Source: Hydrogenophaga sp. (lineage in GTDB: Bacteria; Pseudomonadota; Gammaproteobacteria; Burkholderiales; Burkholderiaceae_C). From it: DNA of 64,000 nucleotides. The translations under genes were made by a program, and so were the position numbers. Of the stretch, positions 15,203 to 50,689 are shown one piece after another. The notes beneath the pieces are model-generated. The model was given only the letters and a program-made list of their open reading frames with translations. It made no database searches and had not been told where the DNA came from. Each line of letters opens with the position of its first letter. Position 1 is the stretch's first letter. Location of the stretch: positions 44,184 through 108,183 of the forward strand of contig JAUXNG010000012.1 of the NCBI GenBank assembly GCA_030682835.1. Reading direction: 5' to 3'.

Positions 15203-15742
15203 TCACTCAGCGGTGAATTCGCGCTCGTGCATCCAGGCGGCGTGTTTGGGCGCGCGCCGGGTCTGGTTCCACTCGTTGAGCATGTCCCACTTCACGGCGT
15301 CGAGCTTCTGCATCATCTCGGGAGAGGCGGTGTTGGCCGCCAGTTCCAGACGGTGGCCGTTGGGATCGAAGAAATAGATCGACTTGAAGATGGTGTGGTC
15401 GGTGATGCCGATCACCGGCACGCCGGCGGCTTCCAGACGGGTCTTGGTCGCTTCCAGTTCCTCCACCGAGTCCACTTCAAGCGCGATGTGCTGCACCCAC
15501 TCGGGGGTGTTGGGGTCGCGGCTCATCTCGGGTGCGTTGGGCAACTCGAAAAAGGCCAGGATGTTGCCACCGCCTGCGTCCATGAAGAGGTGCATATACG
15601 GGTCGGGTGCCTTGGTGGAAGGCACCTGGTCTTCGGCGATGGCGAGCACGAAGTTCATGTTCAGGTGCTTCTGGTACCACTCGACGGTTTCTTTTGCGTC
15701 CTTGCAGCGGTAGGCCACGTGGTGGATCTTGCGGATGGGCAT
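15203..15742 (-). CDS. VOC-family (glyoxalase/extradiol dioxygenase-like) protein
   Basis: MPIRKIHHVAYRCKDAKETVEWYQKHLNM...FFDPNGHRLELAA. Confidence 0.88.
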   Translation of the reverse strand: MPIRKIHHVAYRCKDAKETVEWYQKHLNMNFVLAIAEDQVPSTKAPDPYMHLFMDAGGGNILAFFELPNAPEMSRDPNTPEWVQHIALEVDSVEELEATKTRLEAAGVPVIGITDHTIFKSIYFFDPNGHRLELAANTASPEMMQKLDAVKWDMLNEWNQTRRAPKHAAWMHEREFTAE

Positions 15743-15767
15743 GGTGTTCTCCTCGGGGTGATGGGTT

Positions 15768-15992
15768 TCAGACGCCTGCTCGCGCGGCGGCCAGCGCTTG
15801 CTTCAGCACGGCAATGTCGCCGACCTGGTTGGCCAGCAGCAGGATCAGCTTGGCGTTGAGCAGCTGGCTCTGCTCGTCGCTCAGGTCGCGATGGGTGTCG
15901 ATCAGCGCTTCGTAGAAATCGTCGCCGGGCGTGAAGTCGCGGAAGTAGCGCTGGCCAGGTTCGGCCAGGTTGGGCTGCAGTTGCAGGGGCAT
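15768..15992 (-). CDS. DUF2783-type small protein
   Basis: DDFYEALIDTHRDLSDEQSQLLNAKLILLLANQVGDIAVLKQALAAARA; directly downstream of FAD monooxygenase. Confidence 0.75.
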   Translation of the reverse strand: MPLQLQPNLAEPGQRYFRDFTPGDDFYEALIDTHRDLSDEQSQLLNAKLILLLANQVGDIAVLKQALAAARAGV

Positions 15993-16023
15993 GGGTGTCT
16001 CCTTCAGGCGGTTCGGTGGGCGA

Positions 16024-17727
16024 TCAGGCGGCCAGGCGCTCGGCCAGCGGCTGCGGTGCCTGGGCGGTGGCGCGGTGCAGCGCGGCCTGCACGGCAGCGG
16101 CGTCAAAGGCGCGCCAGCGGGCAGCCACATGCTGATCGGGGCGGATCAGGTAGCAGGTACCGGGGCGCGCGTCCAGGCGCTGGGCCACCAGACCGTCGCG
16201 GTCGTGCAGCGTCAGTGCACCGGGCACAGAGGCACCGGCGTGGGCCGTCACCAGCACCGTCTCCACCGGAATCGCGGCACCCGCGAGTGCGGCGGCCTGG
16301 CTGCGCAGCGACGGCAAAGCCGCATCGACCTGGGCCGCACTGTCGGCGAAAGCGAGCAGCACGAAACGGTTGCCGAGCTGGTCGAGCAGCCACCCGTCGG
16401 CGCCGCTCACGGCCACCGGCGCATCGTCCAGCGGGGCACCCGGCACCATGTCGCCGGCGAAGGCGTCAACGTCGGGCGTGTTCAGTGCCGAGTGCACCAG
16501 AAAGGCGGGCACCGAAAGGCGACCCGAGTTCACCAGCTTGCGGGCAAAGGGCTGCGTGCGGGCCAGCTCCAGCGCCGCGTTGCGGAACAGCTTGCTCACC
16601 GCACTCTTGGGCGTGATGAAGTCGGTGGATCGCGTGGAGTTGCGGATGTTCTCGTCGGCCGCGTAGACGCGGTCGGCGTCGTAGGTGTCCAGCAGGCCGT
16701 CGGGCGCCAGACCCTTGATGACCAGAGCCAGCTTCCACATCAGGTCGTCGGTGTCCTGGAACCCGGAATTGGCACCGCGTGCGCCAAAGGGCGACACCTG
16801 GTGCGCCGCGTCGCCGGCAAACAGCAGATGGCCGTGGCGGAAGTTCTTCATGCGGCGGCACTGGAAGGTGTAGATGCTGGCCCACTCCAGCGTGCACTCG
16901 CGGTCATCGCCCAGCATGGCCTTGATGCGCGGCATGATGTTTTCGGGCTTCTTCTCTTCTTCGGGGTCGGCGTCCCAGCCGAGCTGGAAGTCGATGCGCC
17001 AGACGTTGTCGCTCTGCTTGTGCAGCAGCACGCTCTGGTTGGGGTGGAACGGCGGGTCGAACCAGAACCAGCGTTCGGCGGGGTAGTCGGCCTTCATCAC
17101 CACGTCGGCGATCAGGAAACGGTCTTTGAAGACGTGGCCTTCGATGTCCAGCCCCAGCTGGCGGCGCACGTTGCTGCGCGCACCGTCGGCCACCACGAGC
17201 CAGTCGGCCTCGATGTCGAAGGCGCCGTCGGGCGTTTCCAGGCTCACGCGGGCGCCGTTGTCGAGCGGCGTGACCGCGGCCACCTTGTACTTCCAGCGCA
17301 GATCCACGCCCAGCTCGGTGGCGCGTTTGACCAGTGCCTCTTCCAGGTGGTACTGCTGCAGGTTGATCATGCCGGGGCGCTTGTGGCCGGCATCGGGCAC
17401 GAGGTTGAAGCGGTAGACCTCTTCTTCCTTCATGAAGGTGCGGCCCACGTTCCAGCTCACGCCCTTCTCCACCACCGGATCGCCCACGCCCAGGCGGTCG
17501 AGGATTTCCAGCGCGCGCTTGGCGTAACAGACGGCGCGCGAGCCGAAGGACACGCTGTCGTCTTCGTCGAACAGCAGCACCTCCAGCCCTTGCAACCGGG
17601 CGTCGATGGCCGCGGCCAGGCCCACCGGACCGGCGCCAATGATGACCAGCGGCCGGCGCTGCGGGGCGCCCTGCATCAGATCGGCCGGGGGCTGATAGGG
17701 AAAGGTGGGGTAGGTGTAAGTGGCCAT
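16024..17727 (-). CDS. FAD-dependent aromatic monooxygenase (MhpA-like family)
   Basis: RRPLVIIGAGPVGLAAAIDARLQG FAD motif; GHLLFAGDAAHQVSPFGARGANSGFQDTDDLMWKLAL. Confidence 0.92.
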   Translation of the reverse strand: MATYTYPTFPYQPPADLMQGAPQRRPLVIIGAGPVGLAAAIDARLQGLEVLLFDEDDSVSFGSRAVCYAKRALEILDRLGVGDPVVEKGVSWNVGRTFMKEEEVYRFNLVPDAGHKRPGMINLQQYHLEEALVKRATELGVDLRWKYKVAAVTPLDNGARVSLETPDGAFDIEADWLVVADGARSNVRRQLGLDIEGHVFKDRFLIADVVMKADYPAERWFWFDPPFHPNQSVLLHKQSDNVWRIDFQLGWDADPEEEKKPENIMPRIKAMLGDDRECTLEWASIYTFQCRRMKNFRHGHLLFAGDAAHQVSPFGARGANSGFQDTDDLMWKLALVIKGLAPDGLLDTYDADRVYAADENIRNSTRSTDFITPKSAVSKLFRNAALELARTQPFARKLVNSGRLSVPAFLVHSALNTPDVDAFAGDMVPGAPLDDAPVAVSGADGWLLDQLGNRFVLLAFADSAAQVDAALPSLRSQAAALAGAAIPVETVLVTAHAGASVPGALTLHDRDGLVAQRLDARPGTCYLIRPDQHVAARWRAFDAAAVQAALHRATAQAPQPLAERLAA

Positions 17728-17845: not shown

Positions 17846-17965
17846 ATTTGCAGATGCACGCGTGCTCTCCTCGGACGTGGCTGCGCCGCGAACGGACGCG
17901 ACCAGGCCGGACCTGACATGGCCCGGCTTGAAAACAGGAAAAAAATTGGGGCGAAGCCCCCCGCG

Positions 17966-18412
17966 TCAGCTCTCTTCCGCGGGCACGCGTGGCTTGACGA
18001 GGGTGACCGGCACAGGGGAAGCCTGCACCAGTTCCTGCGAGACAGAACCCAGCATGGACGCGCGCATGCCGCCGCCGTGCGTGCTCATGATCACGGCCTG
18101 GCAACCGTGCCGCTCCAGGATCTCGACCAGCAGATGGGCCGGGTCGCCGGTGGCCATGTCCTGCTCCACCGCCAGACCGGCGGCGTTGAGCAGGGTCACG
18201 GCGGGGCGCATGAGGTCGCGGCTGGCTTCCTCGTTCACGCGCTGCAGCACGGCGGGGTCGTGCGCGGTCACCAGTTCGTACAGGTTGGCCGCTTCCTGCA
18301 CATTGGCCACCACGAAACGGGCCTTGAGCCCCGAGCCCACCAGGTGCAGGGCGTGGTGCACCGCCGCCATGGAAAATTCGGAGCCGTCGGTGGGGATGAG
18401 GATCTTGATCAT
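17966..18412 (-). CDS. Universal stress protein (UspA family)
   Basis: MIKILIPTDGSEFSMAAVHHAL...QAVIMSTHGGGMRASMLGSVSQELVQASPVPVTLV. Confidence 0.93.
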   Translation of the reverse strand: MIKILIPTDGSEFSMAAVHHALHLVGSGLKARFVVANVQEAANLYELVTAHDPAVLQRVNEEASRDLMRPAVTLLNAAGLAVEQDMATGDPAHLLVEILERHGCQAVIMSTHGGGMRASMLGSVSQELVQASPVPVTLVKPRVPAEES

Positions 18413-18431
18413 GGTGGGTCCTTGTGTCGGG

Positions 18432-18863
18432 TCAGAAAGGGCGGTCGTTGAGCACGCACCAGTAAAGCTCGATGTGCTCGGCCACTTCGATGAACTTGGT
18501 GAAACTGACCGGCTTCTCGATGTAGGAGTTCACGCCCAGGTCGTAGGCGGTTTTGAGGTCACGGTCTTCGCGTGACGAGGTGAGCATCACGACCGGAATG
18601 CGCCGGTACAGCGGGTGGTCCTTGAGTTGCTGCAGCACCTCCAGCCCGTTGATCTTGGGCATGTTGATGTCCAGCAGGATCACGGCCGGCAGGGGTTCGC
18701 CCGCATCCCAGCGGGGCAGGAAAGCCAAGGCCTCTTCACCGTCTCGTGCGATCTGGATGGTGTTGGAAAACTTCTTCTTGCTGAAGGCTCGCAAGGTGAG
18801 GTCCAGGTCCATCGGGTTGTCTTCAACCAGCAGGATGGGGGGGAGGGAAACGATGGGTTTCAT
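18432..18863 (-). CDS. Single-domain response regulator (Rcp1-like)
   Basis: PPILLVEDNPMDLDLTLRAF...AVILLDINMPKINGLEVLQQL; 4-bp overlap with kinase. Confidence 0.93.
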   Translation of the reverse strand: MKPIVSLPPILLVEDNPMDLDLTLRAFSKKKFSNTIQIARDGEEALAFLPRWDAGEPLPAVILLDINMPKINGLEVLQQLKDHPLYRRIPVVMLTSSREDRDLKTAYDLGVNSYIEKPVSFTKFIEVAEHIELYWCVLNDRPF

Positions 18864-21508
18864 GCCGGAAACTCCAGATAGAAGGTGGCGCCCTTGCCGG
18901 GCGTGCTTTCGGCCCACACCCGGCCACCCATGCGCTGGACCGCCTTGGTCACCAGCGCCAGGCCAACACCGGTGCCGGGATACTCTTCCGCCCGGTGCAG
19001 GCGCTGGAAGATGCCAAAGATGCGGTCGTGGTAATTCATGTCAAATCCGACCCCATTGTCGCGCACCCAGAGCGTGTGGTGGCCCTCTGCGGTTCGTGCG
19101 CCGATCTGCAGCATGGGCTGCGGGCTGGCGCTGCTGAACTTGATGGCGTTGCCGATCAGGTTGCGCAGCGCCAGTGCCAGCGCGTCGCGGTCGACCCGCA
19201 GCGTGATGGCTTCCAGCTGCCGATCGACCGCCGTGCCGTGACGCTCCAGATCGGCGCTGAAACCCTCCAGCACCAGTTCCACCAAGGGCGGCACGTCCAC
19301 CGCTTCATGGCCCATGCTGCGGCGCTCCAGGTGCGAGTAGTCGAGCAGGTCGGAAATGAGCTGGCTCATCAGCAGCACCCCGCGCCGGATGCGGTCCACA
19401 AACGATCGGCCGGCGTCGTCCAGCTGGGGGCCATAGTCTTCCTGCAGCAGCTGGCTGTAGCCATCGATGCCGCGCAGCGGCGCACGCAGGTCGTGCGAGA
19501 CGGTGTAGGTGAAGGCCTCCAGCTCGTGGTTGGCATCGCTGAGCTGGCGGGTGCGCTCCTGCACCCGCTGCTCCAGGGCCTCGTTGGTGCGCTTCAGGGC
19601 TTCTTCGGCCTCCTTCTCGGTGGTGACGTCCTGCACCGTGCCGGTGTAGTGGGGCGGCAGCCCTCCTGCGCGCTCGTGCCGCTGCGAGGTGGCACGAAGC
19701 CAGCGCACCGGGCCGCGTGCCGGATCGGTGCGGTAGTCGATGGCGGGCATGCGCTCACCCGCCATCATGTCGGTCAGGGCCACGCGAACCTGGTCGCGGT
19801 CTTCCGGGTGCAGGAGCTCCACGTATTCCTTGAACGCGGGCACCCCCTCGATGGGTTCGAGACCCAGGTTGCGGAACATCTGCTCCGACCACCAGCCCCG
19901 CAGGCTGGCCGGATCGTAGCTCCAGCTCCCGAGGCCGGCCATGGCCTCGGCCCGCTCCAGCCGTTCGTTCTGCTCACGCAACGCAGCGTCGGCCAGCACC
20001 CGCTCGGTGACGTCCTGCACGGTGGTGAACAGGTGTCTGAGCGAGCCATCGGCGTGGTGGACCGAGCGCACATGGATGGCGGTGTGCACCGTGCTGCCGT
20101 CCGCGCGCCGGAAGGTCTTTTCCATCTGGTAGCTGTCGCGCCGCCCGGCCACGAGATCCTCAAACAGCACCAGGTTGCGCTGAAGATCGGGCTCAGGTGT
20201 CATCTCGGCCCAGGTTTTCTGCAGCAGGGTGTCGCGCGAGTAGCCCAGGATCTCGCACAGGCGGTCATTCACCTGCAGCCAGCGCTTGTTCGCGGGTGAG
20301 GAAATCGCCATGCCGATGAAGGGCATTTCGTAGAACATGCGCACCAGGTCGGCCTGCTCGCGCGCCGCCGCCTGTGCCTCTTTACGGGCCGTGATGTCGA
20401 CCAGTATGCCGGTGATGCCCAGCACCGCGCCATCCTCCCCGCGCGTCAGGGCGGTGCGGTCGTCGACCCAGATCCAGCGCCCGTCGGCGCAGCGCAGCCG
20501 GTATTCCTGCTGGTACTCATCCGGGCCGTTGGCGAAATAGCCCGCCACCTCGTCGTGCACACGCTGGGCGTCGTCCGCGTGGATCAGCTCGCTGTAATCC
20601 CAGCGGCCTGCGAGCCAGTCTTCCTTCTGGTAGCCCCACTGCGACACCGCTTCGTTGACGAAGGCCACTGGCCACCCGGGCTCGTTGCGCCACTCGATGA
20701 CCACCACGGGCGAGCGGTTGACCACGTCGTTCAGATGCCGGATCTCGGTCTGGTCGGCCTGCAACTGGCCAGCCATCTGGTCGATCTCGGCGCCGATCAG
20801 GGCCAGTTCGTCGCGTCCCTCCAGGCCGCTGCGCGCATGCAGGCGCCCACGACCGATGGCGGCCAGCGTGAGACCCAGCTGCCGGGCGCGTCGGAACCAG
20901 ATCAGGTGCAACAGCACGGCCAGCACGGCCGCCGCGCCCAGCAGCAGCATCGCCTCGCGCAACACCTCCTTGCGCACCACCACCATGTGCTGGGCCAGGG
21001 GCAAGGCCATGTCTTCGCTGACCACGAGCCAGCGCCCGTCCTGCACCGGCACAAAAGCGGCGAGACGGTCTGCGCCGGGGAGAGCATGGACCTCGATCAC
21101 ACGAACGCCACGGGCCTGCGACTGGGCGAGCATCTCGCGCAGAAGGGCGGGCCATTCGCCCGTCAGCTCGGCAAAGGCCCGACCGATGTGCAGGCGGGAC
21201 AACGAAGCCTCCACCCGCCCCTGCGGCGAGATCAGGAAAGCGTGGTCCAGCCCATCGTGCAGGGCCAGGCTGCCCACCAGCCGGTGCAGCAGCTGGGCAT
21301 CGCCGGCGGCCGTCTCCAGGTCGAGCCGGGTCTGCTCCACGGTCAGGCGTTCGCGCAGCACGCGCACTTCCTGCTCGGCCACGCGTGCGGCCACCGAGCC
21401 CACCTGCAGGCGGTAGTTGAGGGCGGCGCCGCCCAGGGCGAGCACCACCATGAGCAGCGGCACAAGCCAGCGCCCCGGCACGCGTGTGAGCAGGCCCACC
21501 CCGCTCAT
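18860..21508 (-). CDS. Membrane PAS-domain sensor histidine kinase
   Basis: Two TMs flanking a periplasmic domain, several PAS/PAC domains, FTYTVSHDLRAPLRGIDGYSQLL, HATPase near C-terminus. Confidence 0.95.
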   Translation of the reverse strand: MSGVGLLTRVPGRWLVPLLMVVLALGGAALNYRLQVGSVAARVAEQEVRVLRERLTVEQTRLDLETAAGDAQLLHRLVGSLALHDGLDHAFLISPQGRVEASLSRLHIGRAFAELTGEWPALLREMLAQSQARGVRVIEVHALPGADRLAAFVPVQDGRWLVVSEDMALPLAQHMVVVRKEVLREAMLLLGAAAVLAVLLHLIWFRRARQLGLTLAAIGRGRLHARSGLEGRDELALIGAEIDQMAGQLQADQTEIRHLNDVVNRSPVVVIEWRNEPGWPVAFVNEAVSQWGYQKEDWLAGRWDYSELIHADDAQRVHDEVAGYFANGPDEYQQEYRLRCADGRWIWVDDRTALTRGEDGAVLGITGILVDITARKEAQAAAREQADLVRMFYEMPFIGMAISSPANKRWLQVNDRLCEILGYSRDTLLQKTWAEMTPEPDLQRNLVLFEDLVAGRRDSYQMEKTFRRADGSTVHTAIHVRSVHHADGSLRHLFTTVQDVTERVLADAALREQNERLERAEAMAGLGSWSYDPASLRGWWSEQMFRNLGLEPIEGVPAFKEYVELLHPEDRDQVRVALTDMMAGERMPAIDYRTDPARGPVRWLRATSQRHERAGGLPPHYTGTVQDVTTEKEAEEALKRTNEALEQRVQERTRQLSDANHELEAFTYTVSHDLRAPLRGIDGYSQLLQEDYGPQLDDAGRSFVDRIRRGVLLMSQLISDLLDYSHLERRSMGHEAVDVPPLVELVLEGFSADLERHGTAVDRQLEAITLRVDRDALALALRNLIGNAIKFSSASPQPMLQIGARTAEGHHTLWVRDNGVGFDMNYHDRIFGIFQRLHRAEEYPGTGVGLALVTKAVQRMGGRVWAESTPGKGATFYLEFPA

Positions 21509-22581
21509 GGCGACACCACCGGCGAGCTGCGCGCAGCCGGACCGGCATCGATCAGCCGCGCCCAGTCCACCGGTTGGCGCAGCAGACCCAGCGCCTGCAG
21601 CGTGGCGGCCAGCCGCTCCCCGCTGCGCTGCAGGGGGGCCGGCTCACCCGTGAGTTGCTGCAGGGATTCGGGTGGCGTGAAATAGTGCAGGCCCGCCTGC
21701 GTGAGCAGGTACTGCGCCACCGTCAGGCCGGTGCCCGGCGCCAGCACGGCCGCGGCTCCCGCCGGGTCGCCCAGGTAGGCGGACAGCCCGGCGCTCCAGG
21801 CCTGCAAAAGCGCGTCCACATCCTCGGGGCGCTCGCGCAGGGCGGCCGAGGTGACCACCAGCACATCGACGATCTCGCCCGGCATCTGGCGGGTGTCGAA
21901 CAGGGTCGCATAACCGGCATCGCGCATCTGCGCTGCCAGTGGTTCGTAGGACACGGCGGCCGCCACGCGCCCGGCCTGCAAGGCCGGCAGATGCTGCGAC
22001 GCTTCCAGCGTGACCACGGTGATGTCGTTTTCCTGCAGGCCCATCGAGGCCAGCCAGCGCTGCAACATGAGGCGGTTGAGCGCAGACGCCTCCAGCGCCA
22101 CACGGCTGCCGCGCACGGCAGACGGCTGGTCAAGCCCGCTCAGGCCCATCACCACATCGGCTCCGGCCGACTCGTCGAGCACGGCCACGATGCGCAGGTC
22201 CAGCCCTTCGTCGGCCAGCTCCAGCGCCTGGTCCAGGGTGATGGCCATGGCGTCGAGCAGGCCGTTGCGAAAGTGGCGAAAGCTCTCGGCGTGGGAGGAC
22301 AGCTCGACGATTTTCACGCGGGCGGTATCTGCCAGCCCCCGCTCCCGGGCCAGCACGAGGGGGTCGTAGCCGACCCAGGGGTTGAGCCCCACGGTCAGTG
22401 GGGAGCGCGGAGCTTCCACGCAGGCGCTGAGTCCGGCCAGTGCGGTCACGGCGAACAGGCACACGAACAGACGCTGCAGTGCGGAACGGCCCGCGCTCCA
22501 CCACCCACCCAGCCCGCTCGGGCCACCGGCGCCGCTGTCTGGGCGGCGACCGGCCGCCAGGGCCGATGCCCATGTATCCAT
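21505..22581 (-). CDS. Periplasmic solute-binding lipoprotein (SsuA/NMT1-like)
   Basis: Lipobox LAGLSAC; LTVGLNPWVGYDPLVLARERGL; 4-bp overlap with kinase, no ABC permease/ATPase nearby. Confidence 0.85.
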   Translation of the reverse strand: MDTWASALAAGRRPDSGAGGPSGLGGWWSAGRSALQRLFVCLFAVTALAGLSACVEAPRSPLTVGLNPWVGYDPLVLARERGLADTARVKIVELSSHAESFRHFRNGLLDAMAITLDQALELADEGLDLRIVAVLDESAGADVVMGLSGLDQPSAVRGSRVALEASALNRLMLQRWLASMGLQENDITVVTLEASQHLPALQAGRVAAAVSYEPLAAQMRDAGYATLFDTRQMPGEIVDVLVVTSAALRERPEDVDALLQAWSAGLSAYLGDPAGAAAVLAPGTGLTVAQYLLTQAGLHYFTPPESLQQLTGEPAPLQRSGERLAATLQALGLLRQPVDWARLIDAGPAARSSPVVSP

Positions 22582-40399: not shown

Positions 40400-42331
40400 A
40401 TGATTGTTGCCACCGCCGGCCACATCGACCATGGCAAGACGCTGCTGGTGCGCACGCTCACCGGCGTCGATACCGACCGCCTGCCCGAGGAAAAAGCGCG
40501 CGGCATTTCCATCGACCTGGGCTTCGCCTACGGAACACCCGCTGGTGGCCCGCTGGTGGGCTTTGTGGATGTGCCCGGTCATGAGCGCTTTGTGCGCAAC
40601 ATGGTGGCCGGCGTCTGCGGCATCGACTTCGCGCTGCTGGTGGTGGCGGCCGACGACGGCGTGATGCCGCAGACGGTGGAGCACTTGCAGATACTGGATC
40701 TGCTCGGCGTGCGCCGCGGCCTGGCGGTGATGAGCAAGGTGGACCGGGTGGATGCGGCTCGGCGGCGGCAGGTGCGGGCCGACATCGCGGCGCTGGTGGC
40801 TGGCACGGGTCTGGACGGGGTGGACACCGTGGAGGTCTCGCCGGTGACGGGCGAGGGCATCCCCACGGTGGCCGAGCGGCTGCGCGCCGCGGCTGAAGAA
40901 ACGCAGGAGCGCTTCGACCCCGGACGGCACTTCCGTTTTGCGGTGGACCGCGCCTTCACGGTCGAAGGCAGCGGTACGGTCGTTACCGGCACCGTGTTCA
41001 GCGGCGAGGCGGCCGTGGGCGATCGCCTGCTGGTGTCGCCCGGCGGCGTGGCCGCCCGGGTGCGCCGCCTGCACGTGCACGCCAGCGAGGTGGCCCGCGT
41101 GCAGGCCGGGCAGCGCTGCGCGATCAACCTCGCCAACGTGGCGCTGGCCGACGTGGCCCGCGGCGACTGGATCGTGGCCGATGCGGTCCACCGCCCGACC
41201 CTGCGGCTCGATGCCCGGCTGCACCTGCTGCCCGGCGCCCACGCACCCGGGCCAGCGGCGCGCGTGCACCTGCACCACGGCTGCCGCAGCACCCTGGCGC
41301 GCGTGGTGCCGATCCCCGGCCAGACGCTGGCCCCTGGCGCGGCTGCCTGGGTTCACCTGGTGATCGACGAGCCCCTGCCCGCCCTGCACGGCGACCGCTT
41401 CATCCTGCGCGACTCGGCGGCCGAGCGCACGCTGGGCGGGGGGGTGGTGCTGGACCCGTTTGCCACCGGGCGGCGCCGACGCAGCGACCGAGCCGCCACG
41501 CTGGCCACACTGGCAGGGGGAGGTGCAGAAGACGTGCTGCCCGTCCTGCTCGACGCACCCGCCGGGGTGGATCTCGACCGGTTTGAGCAGATGTTCAACC
41601 TCACCGCGCCGGCCGCGCAGGCGCTGCGCGATGCGCTCGGCGTGGTGGTGATCGGCCGCGCCCCGCACATCGGCACCACGCGCGAACGCCACGTTGCGTG
41701 GCAGCAGGCCACGCAGGCCTGCCTGGAGGCATTTCACACACAGCATCCGGCCGTGCACGGCATGCGCGTCAGCGCGCTGCGCGACCAGGTGGCCCCGGCG
41801 TTGCCGGTGCCCAGCTTTGAGGCTTTCCTGCACGGCGGCACCGCCTCGCGTGGCATCACCGTGCGAAACGGCGTGGCGCGGCTGGCCGAGCACGACGTGG
41901 CCGCCAACCCCGGCGACCGCGCACTGTGGGAAGCCGTCTACCCGCTGCTGCGCGGCACCGGCACCGACCTGGCCACGGCGCTGCCGCGACCGCAGGAACT
42001 CGCCCGGGCCGCGCGTGTCGACCTGCGGGCTTTGACCGACCTGCTCTACCGCCGGCGCGCCACCGGCACGGTGCACCGGGTGGGCGCCGACCGCTTCTGC
42101 CTGCGCACGACGCTGGCCAGCCTGGCCTCGACGGCCGCCACCCTGGCGCACGCGTCCCCCGATGGCCGCTTCACCGTGGGGCAGTTCCGCGACGCCATCG
42201 GCACGGGCCGGGGCCTGGCCATCGAGATTCTGGAATACCTGGACAGCGTGGGGGCGACGATGCGCGTGGGCGAAGCGAGGCGCCTGCGCAACGAGCATGT
42301 GGCGCAGCTGCAGGCATCCACGACGCCCTGA
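40400..42331 (+). CDS. selB: Selenocysteine-specific elongation factor SelB
   Basis: [44 protein letters not shown]; winged-helix C-terminus. Confidence 0.95.
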
Positions 42332-45480: not shown

Positions 45481-45576
45481 TGGCGGAAGAGGTGAGAGTC
45501 GAACTCACCGGAGACGCTTCTAACGCCTCCCACCGGAGTTGAAGTCCGGGCGCCCCACCAGGGACGTCGCTCTTCC
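45481..45576 (-). tRNA. selC: tRNA-Sec (anticodon TCA), CCA encoded
   Basis: Minus strand GGAAGAGCGACGTCCCTGGTGGGGCGCCCGGACTTCAACTCCGG...GGTGAGTTCGACTCTCACCTCTTCCGCCA; long variable arm, TTCGACTC T-loop. Confidence 0.96.
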
Positions 45577-45580
45577 TGAA

Positions 45581-47038
45581 TCAGGGGTGTGGGGCCAGCT
45601 CCTTTTTGGAAGCCGGCGCCGCGTCCACGCGCAGCGCCTCCAGCGAGCGCAGCACAGGCGCCACGTCTTCCAGGCAGCGGCAGTCCAGCAGCACGCCACC
45701 CTCTTCCAGGCGGCCGATCACAGGGAGTGGCAGCGCGCGCAAAGCCACCAGCAGGCGCGCCGCCTGGCGGTCGCGCTCGCGGCGTGAGCCGCTGGCTTCG
45801 ATGCGCACCCCCGCGCTCGGCAGGCCAGCCACCGGCAACGCGCCGCTGCCAATGGTGCTGGCGCAATCGACCACCCGCGCGCTCGCCCGGTCGCCCAGCC
45901 GCGCCTGCAGGGCGTCGGCCAGTTCAGCAGCCACGCGGGCAATGTCGGCCCGCGGGCGCGCCAGCAGGCGCAAGGTGGGCAGACGTGCCACCAGCCGCTC
46001 AGGGTCGCCATAGAGGCGCAACACCTCGCCCAGCGCCGCCAGCGTGAGCTTGTCGCAGCGCAGGGCGCGCTTGAGCGGATTGCGGCGCAGCCGCGCGATC
46101 AGATCGGCGCGCCCGGCGACGATGCCGCACTGCGGGCCGCCCAGCAATTTGTCACCACTGAAGCTGACCAGGTCCATGCCTGCGGCCAGCGTTTCACGCA
46201 CGGTGGGCTCGTGCGGCAAGTGCCAGGCGCGCAGATCAACCAGCGTGCCGCTGCCCAGGTCGGCGAACGAAGGCAGGCCGCGGTCACGCGCGAGGTTTGC
46301 CACCTGCTCCATGGGCACCGAGGCCGTGAAGCCGCGGATTTCGTAGTTGCTGGGGTGCACCTTCATCAGCAGCGCGGTGCGTGGGTCAATGGCCTCGGCA
46401 TAGTCGCGCAGGTGGGTGCGGTTGGTGGTGCCCACCTCGTGCAGGCGGGCGCCGGCGCGGGTCATGATGTCGGGCACGCGGAACTGCCCGCCGATCTCGA
46501 CCAGCTCGCCGCGCGAGACGATGACCGAGCGCCGCGTGGCCAGCGTGTTGAGCACCAGCATCACCGCCGCCGCGTTGTTGTTCACCACCAGTGCCGCATC
46601 GGCTCCGGTGAGCTGGCAGACCTGCGCCTGCACATGGGCGTCGCGCTCGCCGCGCGCCCCACCGTCCATATCGAATTCCAGGTTGCAGGGCTCGCGCGCC
46701 ACGCGGGCCATGGCTTCAATGGCTTCTTCGGGCAGCAGGGCGCGTCCCAGGTTGGTGTGCAGCACCGTACCGGTGAGGTTGGCCACCGGGCGCAGCGAGG
46801 GCGCTGCGGCCTGGTCGAGCGCGCGTCCGATGTCGAGCGCCAGCGTGGCGGGCTCGAAGGCCGACGCAGGTGCCGAACCCCACTCGGCACGCAGCACATC
46901 CAGATGCTCACGCAAGGCATCACGTACCGGCACGCGGCCATGCCGTGCCACCACCGAACCGAGCGCCTGGCTCTCCAGCAGTTCGTCCACCGACGCGATA
47001 CGCGGCCGGCTGGCCGAAGGGGCCACGCCGAGACTCAT
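45581..47038 (-). CDS. selA: L-seryl-tRNA(Sec) selenium transferase SelA
   Basis: NLTGTVLHTNLGRALLPEEAIEAM; SFSGDKLLGGPQCGIVAGRADLIARLRRNPLKRALRCDKLTLAAL. Confidence 0.97.
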   Translation of the reverse strand: MSLGVAPSASRPRIASVDELLESQALGSVVARHGRVPVRDALREHLDVLRAEWGSAPASAFEPATLALDIGRALDQAAAPSLRPVANLTGTVLHTNLGRALLPEEAIEAMARVAREPCNLEFDMDGGARGERDAHVQAQVCQLTGADAALVVNNNAAAVMLVLNTLATRRSVIVSRGELVEIGGQFRVPDIMTRAGARLHEVGTTNRTHLRDYAEAIDPRTALLMKVHPSNYEIRGFTASVPMEQVANLARDRGLPSFADLGSGTLVDLRAWHLPHEPTVRETLAAGMDLVSFSGDKLLGGPQCGIVAGRADLIARLRRNPLKRALRCDKLTLAALGEVLRLYGDPERLVARLPTLRLLARPRADIARVAAELADALQARLGDRASARVVDCASTIGSGALPVAGLPSAGVRIEASGSRRERDRQAARLLVALRALPLPVIGRLEEGGVLLDCRCLEDVAPVLRSLEALRVDAAPASKKELAPHP

Positions 47039-47389: not shown

Positions 47390-50300
47390 ATGACGATGAT
47401 GAAGAAGCCCCTCTCACAGAAGCCAATCTCCCGGCGCGACTTCGGCCGAATGCTGGCCGGCGGTGGAACAGCGGTGGGCGGTCTCGTGGGAGCAGGCATG
47501 AGCCTGGCCCCCGTCACGGCGCGGGCGCAGCAGCTGCGCATTGCCGACGCGAAGGCTACACCCAGCATCTGCCCTTTTTGCGCCGTGGGTTGCGCCACGC
47601 TGATCCACACGGTCGAAGGCCGCGTGGTCAACATCGAAGGCGATGCCCGCAGCCCCATCAGCGAGGGCACGCTCTGCCCCAAGGGTGCTGCCATTTTCCA
47701 GCTGCACGTCAACCCCAACCGGCCCACCCAGGTGCTGCACCGAGCGCCGGGCGCGGCCGACTGGGAGGTGTGGGACCTGGAGCGGGCCATGACACGCGTG
47801 GCCGAACTGACCAAGAAGACGCGCGACGAAACTTTCATTGAACGCTTGGCTGATGGCAAGCAGGTGAACTGCACCACGTCCATCTTTTCGCTGGGTGGCG
47901 CGACGCTGGACAACGAGTGGAACCACATCCACCAGAAACTGATGCGCGGCCTGGGCGTTGTACCCATCGAAAACCAGGCGCGAATATGACATAGCTCCAG
48001 TGTCCCCGGTCTGGGGACCAGGCTCGGTCGCGGCGCGGCCACCATGTATCCGAGGGCGATGGAGGACTCGGACTGCGTGCTCGTCATGGGCTCGAACATG
48101 GCGGAGAACCACCCGGTGGCGTTTCGCTGGCCCATGAAGGCCAAGGTGGATCACGGCGCCAAGCTGATCCATGTGGATCCGCGCTTCACCCGCACCAGCG
48201 CCATGGCCGACATCTACGCGCCCTTGCGCGCCGGTTCGGACATCGCCTTTCTGGGGGGGCTGGTCAACTTCGTGCTGAACAGCCAGCGCTGGAACACCGA
48301 CCCCTTCTTCCGCACCTTCGCCACCACCTACACCAACGCGGCCACGCTCATCAAGCGCGAGTTCCGCGACACCGAGGATCTGGAGGGCGTGTTCTCCGGC
48401 CTGGTGGCCTACACCGGCGACGCACCCGAGTGGCCGTTCAATGGCTTCAAAGGCGAGTACGAGTCGTCGAGCTGGGGTTACGACCGGCCCGGTGACGCCG
48501 GCGGCGGCGACAACTCGGGCGGCGGTCCGCGCGAAACGGCCCGGGAAGACGGCGGCGGGCCACAGGAACAGCGCGCGTCACAGGCTGCGCAGGTGGCCGC
48601 CAGCGGCCCACCGTTTGATGACGTGGTGAAGGCCCTGGCCCAGCCCCCGGCCGATCGCGACGAGAGCCTGCAAGACCCGCGCTGCGTGCTGCAGATCGTG
48701 CGCCGCCACTTCTCGCGCTACACACCCGAGATGGTGGAGCAGGTCACCGGTTGCCCGCGCGACCTGTTCCTGCGCGTGGCACAGACCCTGCTGGACAATT
48801 CGGGCGCTGAACGCACCAGCTCGATTGCCTACGCGGTGGCCTGGACGCAGCACACCTACGGCGTGCAGATCATCAGCTGCGCGGCGCTGCTGCAGCTGCT
48901 GCTGGGCAACGTGGGCCGGCCAGGCGCGGGCATCGTGGCGCTGCGCGGCCATGCGTCCATCCAGGGGTCGACCGACATCCCCACGCTCTACCACTCGATC
49001 CACGGCTACATGTCGGCGCCCTCGGCGCTGGAGCCGCACGCCACGCTGGCACAGTGGTTGGCCAAGGAAACCAAGCCCACGGGCTACTGGGCCAACACAC
49101 CGAAGTTCATGGTGTCTTACCTGAAGTCGATGTATGGCGAAGCCGCCACGCGCGAAAACGACTTTGGCTACCACTGGCACCCCAAGATTTACGGCGACCA
49201 CTCGCACATGCCCATGTTCGTGGCCATGAACCAGGGCCGTGTGAAGGGCATGTTCTGCATCGGCCAGAACCCGGCCACCTCGCTCAACGCCAAGCTGGAG
49301 CGTTCGGGCCTGCGCCAGCTGGAGTGGCTGGTGGTGAAAGACAACTGGCTGCACGAAACCTCGATGTTCTGGAAGACCGCACCCGAGGTGCAGGCCGGCG
49401 AGATCGCCACCGCAGACATCAAGACCGAGGTGTTCTTCTTCCCTTCGGCCCAGGTGGCCGAGTACGACGGCAGCTTCACCAACACCCAGCGCCTGCTGCA
49501 GTGGCACTACAAGGCCGCGGAAGCGCCGGGCGACTGCCGCTCCGACATGTACTTCACCTATGAGCTGGGCAAGCGGCTGAAGCAGCTGTATGCCGGCTCG
49601 TCATTGCCGCGCGACGAAGGCTTCAAGCATCTGATCTGGGACTACGAGGCCGAGGACCCCACCGACCGCGAGCGCGGCGAGCCTTCGTCCCTGAAGATCC
49701 TCAAGGAGATCAACGGCTACTTCAGCGCCAACCCCGCCCGCCACCTGGGCGGGCCGCAGGATCTGTCCGACGACGGCTCCACCAGCTGCGCTTCGTGGAT
49801 CTACTGCGGTGTGTTCCCTTCAGCCAGCGAAAACCGATCGGCCAACCGCGAGGCCGATCCGCCGGGCGTGAAAGGCGCACACCTGGGCTGGGGATTCGCC
49901 TGGCCGTCGAACCGCCGCATCATCTACAACCGCGTGTCGGCCGACCCGCAGGGCCGCCCGTGGAGCGAACGCAAGAAGTACATCTGGTGGGACGAGGCAC
50001 AAGCCAAATGGACCGGGCTGGACGTGCCCGACTTCCCCGAGACCAAGCCGCCGGGCTACCGGCCGCCGCCCGGCGCCACCGGCATGGAGGCGCACTCGGG
50101 CACCGACGCTTTCATCCTCAAGGGCGACGGCAAGGGCTGGCTGTATGTGCCTGAGGGCCTGGTGGACGGCCCGCTGCCCACCCACTACGAACCCGCCGAG
50201 TCGGTGGTCCGCAACCCGCTGTATGCGCAGCAGTCCAGCCCGGTCTTCAAATACTGGGACGTGGCGGGCAACCAGCTGGCGCCGCTGGCAGACCCGAAGT

Positions 50301-50689
50301 ACCCGCACATCATCACCACCTACCGGCTGACCGAACACTACCTCTCGGGTGCGATGAGCCGCTGGAACCCCTGGCTGGCCGAGCTGCAGCCCGAGGTGTT
50401 CGTGGAACTGTCACCCGAACTGGCGCGCGCCAAAGGCATCAGCAACCTCGACCGCGTGCGCATCACGAGCCCGCGTGCGTCGGTGCACGCCAAGGCACTG
50501 GTGACGCGGCGCATGCAGCCGCTGCAGATCGCCGGGCGCACCGTGCACCAGGTCGGCATGCCCTTCCACTGGGGCTGGGAAGGCCTGAGCACCGGTGATG
50601 CCGCCAACGAGCTGACCGCCCTGGTCGGCGACCCCAATGTGAGCATCCACGAAGGCAAGACCTTCGTGTGCGACGTGCAGAAAGCCTGA
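47390..50689 (+). CDS. Formate dehydrogenase alpha subunit, selenoprotein (in-frame UGA/Sec at 47987-47989)
   Basis: TAT motif SRRDFGRML; 4Fe-4S SICPFCAVGCATLIH; NQARI-U-HSSSVPGLG; same frame continues to 50689 (track ORFs 46211..47989 and 48044..50689 are halves); SECIS-like hairpin follows UGA. Confidence 0.96.
48002..48018 (+). promoter_or_regulatory. Bacterial SECIS-like stem-loop
   Basis: GTCCCC-GGTCT-GGGGAC, 12 nt after UGA; GGUC in apical loop as in E. coli SECIS. Confidence 0.85.

Follow-up and report, generated by a model that had tools for sequence, protein, structure and literature searches.

A probable solute-binding-protein-dependent signalling operon in Hydrogenophaga and its receptor-linked family

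Introduction

Activation of receptors by solute-binding proteins (SBPs) has been called general and widespread, yet about ten SBP–kinase pairs have been characterized (PMC9602780). In the arsenic-oxyanion-sensing systems AioX-AioS-AioR, ArxXSR and ArrXSR, an SBP dedicated to signalling is encoded together with a membrane kinase and a response regulator (PMC5908839). A liganded SBP also controls a membrane histidine kinase in LuxP-LuxQ and TorT-TorS, and in the NspS-MbaA polyamine receptor a periplasmic binding protein acts through a membrane receptor (PMC9993111). The locus described here lies in a 64,000-nucleotide stretch (the window) of contig JAUXNG010000012.1 from a Hydrogenophaga sp. assembly (GCA_030682835.1). 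It comprises four minus-strand genes, encoding an SBP, a membrane PAS histidine kinase, a stand-alone receiver and a universal stress protein (USP) (Table 1). It resembles the first two groups of systems in pairing an SBP with a membrane kinase, and relatives of its SBP that are encoded beside GGDEF-EAL receptors resemble the third. The analyses presented below indicate that the operon probably encodes an SBP-dependent signalling system, in which the liganded SBP would set kinase activity by docking on the Cache-like domain that the kinase exposes to the periplasm.

Results

The SBP and kinase genes share an ATGA overlap, as do the kinase and receiver genes, and the USP gene starts 19 bp after the receiver gene. 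The four genes are likely to form one operon. A preliminary description of the window, made from the sequence, had reported the successive 4-bp ATGA overlaps linking SBP, kinase and receiver and the presence of a USP gene next on the same strand; both overlaps were present and the last gene had a Pfam Usp match.

The SBP matched Pfam NMT1_2 (E=3.5e-21), with NMT1 also above its cut-off and Phosphonate-bd below. Its AlphaFold model (pLDDT 92.4) had TauA (6ssy) as best Foldseek match (TM-score 0.84 on target length), and as modelled the protein has the TauA/SsuA fold. Scores fell under the NCBIfam cut-offs for SsuA_fam (85.3 against 163.5 bits), taurine (21.6 against 304.25 bits) and urea-type (85.1 against 333.9 bits) SBPs, and neither AioX nor PhnD was found among the sequence matches or the top 50 fold matches.

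A wider family of loci (labelled L, with genomes labelled G) was gathered from 201 family-level genomes, named contigs and further regions. The contig scan used a two-sequence SBP alignment, and the 80 loci kept are biased toward SBPs with those motifs. Genes were called by a codon-usage method, with a few neighbours mis-called, and some regions duplicate named contigs, so that counts refer to loci read and not to independent lineages. The gene following receptor-linked SBPs encoded a histidine kinase, a hybrid kinase or a GGDEF-EAL protein, frequently with a 4-bp overlap, and permease and ATPase genes came after the SBPs with lower scores. An automatic tally of neighbours gave 106 receptors, 34 importers and 20 unresolved cases, in some of which the SBP lay at the end of a contig or the neighbour had been mis-called. 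Because the SBP hidden Markov model (HMM) had been built from receptor-linked SBPs, the gap in score was biased when taken alone, and a tree of 65 SBPs was therefore reconstructed. All transporter-linked SBPs fell on one side of a branch with SH-like approximate likelihood ratio support (SH-aLRT) of 99; the receptor-linked SBPs fell on the other, together with that of L180, whose neighbour had not been resolved automatically and shows GGDEF and EAL-like motifs.

The two sides also differed in membrane anchoring. A lipobox-like motif was present in 108 of 117 receptor-linked SBPs, compared with six of 34 transporter-type SBPs, and the lipobox cysteine, Cys54 in the window SBP, was kept in 115 of 118 aligned receptor-linked SBPs. 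The SsuA/NMT1-like lipoprotein with an LSAC lipobox of the preliminary description was thus recovered by both domain match and conservation, and the contrast between near-universal lipoboxes in the receptor clade and their scarcity among importer SBPs is in keeping with a signalling partner that is tethered.

The same comparison bears on whether the SBP instead serves an ATP-binding cassette (ABC) importer encoded elsewhere, its place beside the kinase only co-regulating uptake with signalling. NMT1-family SBPs normally serve importers, the fold is that of TauA and SsuA, and SBPs with a double duty are known (PMC9602780). However, clade SBPs were never found with importer genes directly downstream, against 34 relatives outside the clade that have them, and the transporter relatives mostly lack the lipid anchor. 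No permease or importer ATPase gene was found near the window operon, as had been noted at the outset. In the whole assembly, a metagenome-assembled genome (MAG) that is 87% complete, only two NitT/TauT-type permeases were found, each beside an ATPase and a candidate SBP of its own, which disfavours service to a remote ABC transporter and leaves this explanation highly improbable.

The window kinase carries three PAS domains, HisKA and HATPase_c by Pfam, with HAMP below threshold. Its H-box (SHDLRAP from residue 671) and its N, G1 and G2 boxes are intact and transmembrane (TM) helices are present, in agreement with its earlier designation as a membrane PAS kinase. The N-terminal TM–periplasm–TM regions of family receptors, a module of about 200 residues, are homologous despite different outputs. 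A sensor HMM, built from 14 sequences of this region without iteration, matched 100 of 109 receptors called beside family SBPs, and among ten further matches were the genuine neighbours for most of the loci still unmatched, where the gene calls had been wrong. Among 68 members no Pfam model covered the sensor domain, apart from HAMP (present in 66 of the 68) and isolated weak matches; the Pfam Cache models gave one weak sCache_3_2 match (0.0046) in the 68 and none in the window kinase. The AlphaFold2 model of the domain (pLDDT 94.8) has a long N-terminal helix followed by a PAS-like sheet and then another long helix, and lies between the two TM segments. Foldseek matched it to WalK extracellular domains, PctD and TlpB, and the module, as predicted, has a WalK/Cache-like fold.

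The SBP–sensor pair recurs in at least eight phyla, including Pseudomonadota, Cyanobacteria, Aquificota, Nitrospinota and Verrucomicrobiota. Switches of output type between kinase and GGDEF number eight on the SBP tree, four on the sensor tree and eight on the joint tree, where well-supported branches force at least three of them; the SBP–sensor pair outlasts its output. Distances between SBPs and between sensor domains were correlated over 59 kinase-type loci (r=0.92). The partial correlation of SBP and sensor given the kinase core was 0.82, compared with 0.04 for SBP and kinase core given the sensor, and the corresponding values within the genus were 0.75 and 0.49; these figures come from quick trees and identity-based distances for neighbouring genes, which share history, and count as support and not as proof.

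The SBP was found in 51 of the 67 genomes of the genus Hydrogenophaga. In 34 related regions, some of them truncated, the kinase (33 regions), receiver (27) and USP (26) were shared and the flanking genes mostly were not, which makes SBP–kinase–receiver–USP the conserved unit; conservation thus extends to the triad of SBP, kinase and receiver singled out in the preliminary description. An ABC ATPase gene upstream of some Hydrogenophaga copies was considered as a possible importer component and rejected, since it is divergently transcribed and the L083 pair includes an FtsX-type permease by Pfam. Sensor matches were present in 52 genomes of the genus, one in each, and 48 of them stood beside the SBP when coordinates were compared by eye; in G217 the sensor/SBP pair is split over contig ends. 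Of 90 genomes of the order, the SBP was detected in eight and the sensor in seven with the thresholds applied; in all seven the two adjoin, and no sensor was found away from an SBP at that threshold. At the eighth SBP locus, read directly, a sensor-bearing hybrid kinase overlaps the SBP by 4 bp.

The receiver has Response_reg as its sole Pfam domain, with intact motifs at the phospho-acceptor Asp65, Thr95 and Lys117. Its matches to PDB 5ic5 (4.5e-38), RcpA (2e-23) and Rcp1 (4e-22) make CheY/Rcp1-type proteins its closest solved relatives, in line with the Rcp1-like regulator without a DNA-binding domain described at first. Judged by sequence, the kinase very likely phosphorylates this adjoining receiver. 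In Methyloversatilis (L089) and in L177 the kinase is followed instead by a receiver and a response regulator (RR)-GGDEF-EAL gene.

In the mechanism that we propose, the lipoprotein would bind a small periplasmic ligand, most likely one bearing an amine or guanidinium group, and, when liganded, would dock on the Cache-like periplasmic domain of the kinase with no delivery to a permease. Ligand-dependent docking would be relayed by way of TM2, HAMP and the PAS domains, and the HisKA/HATPase core would in turn phosphorylate the receiver encoded next; we infer both the physical docking and the direction in which the kinase is controlled. The receiver would act through protein contact, without binding DNA. 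Its target may be the co-encoded USP, which could alternatively be a co-regulated effector, the receiver target and USP role likewise being inferred.

Several observations count against this proposal. Three genomes, G205, G216 and G265 (L219, L220 and L221), keep the kinase, receiver and USP without a clade SBP; the kinase can persist without the SBP in these cases of apparent natural loss, which offer a useful test case. Some family SBPs adjoin receptors without the shared sensor module (L042, L043, L044 and probably L180). Within the sensor family the window kinase itself is divergent: left out of the model, it scored 24.6 bits (E=2.8e-7), which was still the top score among all non-member genes searched. 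In Escherichia coli, the +2 rule predicts an outer-membrane location for lipoproteins without Asp at that position. Asp is found at +2 in two of 117 receptor-linked lipoproteins, the window SBP having Val; by the E. coli rule the SBP would reside in the outer membrane and so apart from the kinase, although it may not be the rule of this host.

Direct contact between the two proteins can also be questioned. Direct binding of small ligands is common among Cache domains, and the Cache-like domain might sense a ligand of its own, the SBP being a neighbour without direct contact that modulates the response indirectly, for example by sequestering ligand. The three genomes that retain the kinase without the SBP are in keeping with this, as are AgtS and AruS of Pseudomonas, which did not bind the neighbouring SBPs tested and for which proximity is no proof of partnership; 10 of 11 characterized SBP–kinase pairs are nevertheless gene neighbours (PMC11113362). 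Set against indirect modulation are the persistence of SBP–sensor pairing across phyla and through output swaps, and the divergence of the SBP, which tracks the sensor domain specifically; we regard it as distinctly unlikely. The original suggestion that the SBP serves the periplasmic domain of the kinase and not a transporter is supported by the receptor-only clade, its near-exclusive linkage to the sensor, the retention of the pair as outputs change and co-divergence beyond the kinase core.

Other arrangements were seen among the loci that lack the shared module or the clade SBP. A methyl-accepting chemotaxis protein without the module (L042:8078-10039) lies 139 bp after a family SBP. The GGDEF-EAL receptors after family SBPs at L043:7960-10680 and L044:8002-10794 carry a PhnD-like domain of their own by Pfam, and such a domain is probable by similarity in the GGDEF-EAL receptor at L180:1192-3987; in these, two binding proteins may act on a single receptor. 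Remote SBPs of G205 and G216 were considered as replacements for the missing SBP and rejected, as they lie in desaturase-type clusters and belong to another SBP clade. In this separate NMT1-like clade (L187, L190, L192, L193, L237 and L238), the SBP gene lies upstream of one for a fatty acid desaturase, an assignment tested with Pfam in L193, and the clusters also contain genes for short-chain dehydrogenases, a creatininase-like protein and an EamA-like transporter; no adjoining ABC genes were seen.

The pocket of the SBP was compared with that of TauA. HMM alignment to 6ssy, with a numbering offset of 21 deduced from Gly61, Gly79, Glu106 and Thr132, placed window Asp142 on Glu106 and Asp239 on Asp205. 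The two TauA residues hold the amine of taurine; SsuA, which lacks the second and has Gly there, is less specific (PMC6906117). Asp142 is Asp in 118 of 118 receptor-linked SBPs and Asp239 in 117 of 118, both positions also being conserved in transporter relatives; Glu164, near-invariant in the receptor-linked SBPs and in the closest group of importers, is not so in those more distant. A guanidine-I riboswitch was found just upstream of the SBP in eight of the 10 loci searched from the transporter side (L046, L048, L179, L181, L183, L184, L186 and L198); these loci carry SBP–permease–ATPase genes of NitT/TauT type, and five also have guanidine-II. ABC-type guanidine import under such riboswitches has been described (PMC12186494).

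The acidic pocket residues, together with riboswitch-controlled guanidine importers as the nearest transporter relatives, make an amine or guanidinium compound our leading guess for the ligand, offered tentatively; the acidic positions are shared across the whole family, however, and a search of the window genome gave no guanidine-I riboswitch. No Rfam match was found near the window operon, and in nine other receptor-linked loci the sole element was one thiamine pyrophosphate (TPP) riboswitch (L039:6701-6806), which lies just upstream of the SBP gene but on the opposite strand.

The ligands suggested in the preliminary description (sulfonates, thiamine precursors and aromatics) fit the conserved acidic pocket and the riboswitch-linked relatives less well. 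Signalling might proceed as proposed with a ligand of one of these classes, since the closest solved structures to the SBP are TauA and SsuA and a gene for a ring-hydroxylase-like flavin adenine dinucleotide (FAD) enzyme lies nearby in the window and in nine other related regions. The FAD enzyme gene common to nine of the 34 related regions is 87-91% identical, the SBP there being about 50-63% identical where present; most other operon copies lack the FAD enzyme gene. The residues at the amine-binding positions of TauA are essentially invariant, SsuA, the less specific protein, having Gly at the second; among transporter relatives, the nearest sit behind guanidine-I riboswitches. A sulfonate, thiamine precursor or aromatic ligand accordingly appears improbable.

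A bolder reading, which we consider doubtful, is that the SBP–sensor pair is a transferable input cassette reporting extracellular guanidinium or another small organic cation, drawn from guanidine-importer SBP stock and plugged into kinases, hybrid kinases and cyclic di-GMP (c-di-GMP) enzymes across many phyla. If so, it would be an extracytoplasmic counterpart of the guanidine riboswitches, and a guanidinium-like ligand would add cell-surface sensing to a recently recognized nitrogen compound.

The features of the operon are listed in Table 1. The terminator-like element is a weak consensus match, as three hairpin/T-run sites were observed in the region compared with 2.1 expected by shuffling.

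Table 1. Features of the operon, in window coordinates
Feature	Coordinates	Strand	Basis
SBP, NMT1/SsuA-like lipoprotein, 358 aa, receptor-linked clade	21505..22581	-	Pfam NMT1_2, fold, tree
Lipobox LSAC, residues 51-54, predicted lipidated Cys54	22420..22431	-	Sequence and conservation
SBP Asp142, aligned with TauA Glu106 (amine-binding hinge residue)	22156..22158	-	HMM alignment to 6ssy
SBP Asp239, aligned with TauA Asp205 (amine-binding)	21865..21867	-	HMM alignment to 6ssy
ATGA overlap, SBP stop/kinase start	21505..21508	-	Sequence
Membrane PAS histidine kinase, 882 aa	18860..21508	-	Pfam and motifs
TM1–periplasmic Cache-like domain–TM2 sensor module, kinase residues 10-203	20900..21481	-	Family HMM, AlphaFold
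HAMP-like linker, kinase residues 206-251	20756..20893	-	Pfam HAMP 1.5e-4, slightly under cut-off
Three PAS domains, kinase residues ~275-640	19589..20686	-	Pfam PAS_3, three stretches
Kinase core, HisKA 664-728 and HATPase_c 773-881	18866..19519	-	Pfam, motifs
ATGA overlap, kinase stop/receiver start	18860..18863	-	Sequence
Stand-alone Rcp1/CheY-like receiver, 143 aa	18432..18863	-	Pfam Response_reg only
USP, 148 aa, final operon gene	17966..18412	-	Pfam Usp 1.3e-23
Terminator-like hairpin and T-run, directly 3' of USP stop	17948..17960	-	Consensus match only

Downstream of the operon (15203-17727) are genes for the ring-hydroxylase-like FAD enzyme, a DUF2783 protein and a glyoxalase-type protein. 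Elsewhere the window likely encodes a selenocysteine-containing formate dehydrogenase cluster, with SelB (40400-42331), tRNA-Sec (45481-45576), SelA (45581-47038) and a molybdopterin oxidoreductase (47390-50689) whose reading frame starts after a gap.

Discussion

The family represents a large set of matched pairs, in which one lipid-anchored SBP clade and one unclassified sensor domain are combined with several outputs in many phyla. How a binding protein talks to its receptor becomes testable by partner swaps between species and outputs. A signalling role is predicted for many SBPs that automatic annotation would label importer subunits, and the pair marks a widespread, uncharacterized way of sensing small molecules. 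No description of this SBP–sensor family was found in the open-access literature, the search having covered open-access papers only, without the Matilla 2021 review.

The comparison with described systems shows where the family departs from them. AioX is a PhnD-like D-cluster protein, whereas the Hydrogenophaga SBP is NMT1/TauA-like; AioR and ArrR are DNA-binding regulators, whereas the Hydrogenophaga receiver stands alone; and, unlike AioXSR, the present SBP–sensor pair is also wired to GGDEF-EAL outputs. MbaA differs in having c-di-GMP turnover as its output, the Hydrogenophaga receptor being a kinase. NspS is PotD-like and polyamine-binding, of another SBP type than NMT1/TauA. The SBPs LuxP and TorT, set beside the present family by description only, are structurally and phylogenetically distinct from AioX (PMC5908839).

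The importer SBPs of the TauA, SsuA and guanidine-type NitT/TauT systems share the fold and the conserved acidic pocket positions, but they are accompanied by importer genes, mostly lack the lipobox and fall outside the receptor-linked clade. The Rcp1-like regulators of phytochrome kinases provide a parallel to the output side, with a stand-alone receiver beside a kinase that has an HDLRAPLR-type H box; unlike those regulators, the Hydrogenophaga receiver is partnered by a transmembrane PAS kinase linked to an SBP, with no phytochrome domains among the Pfam matches of the kinase. The family is set apart from known SBP–kinase systems by its type of SBP, its sensor domain, its stand-alone receiver and the variety of its outputs.

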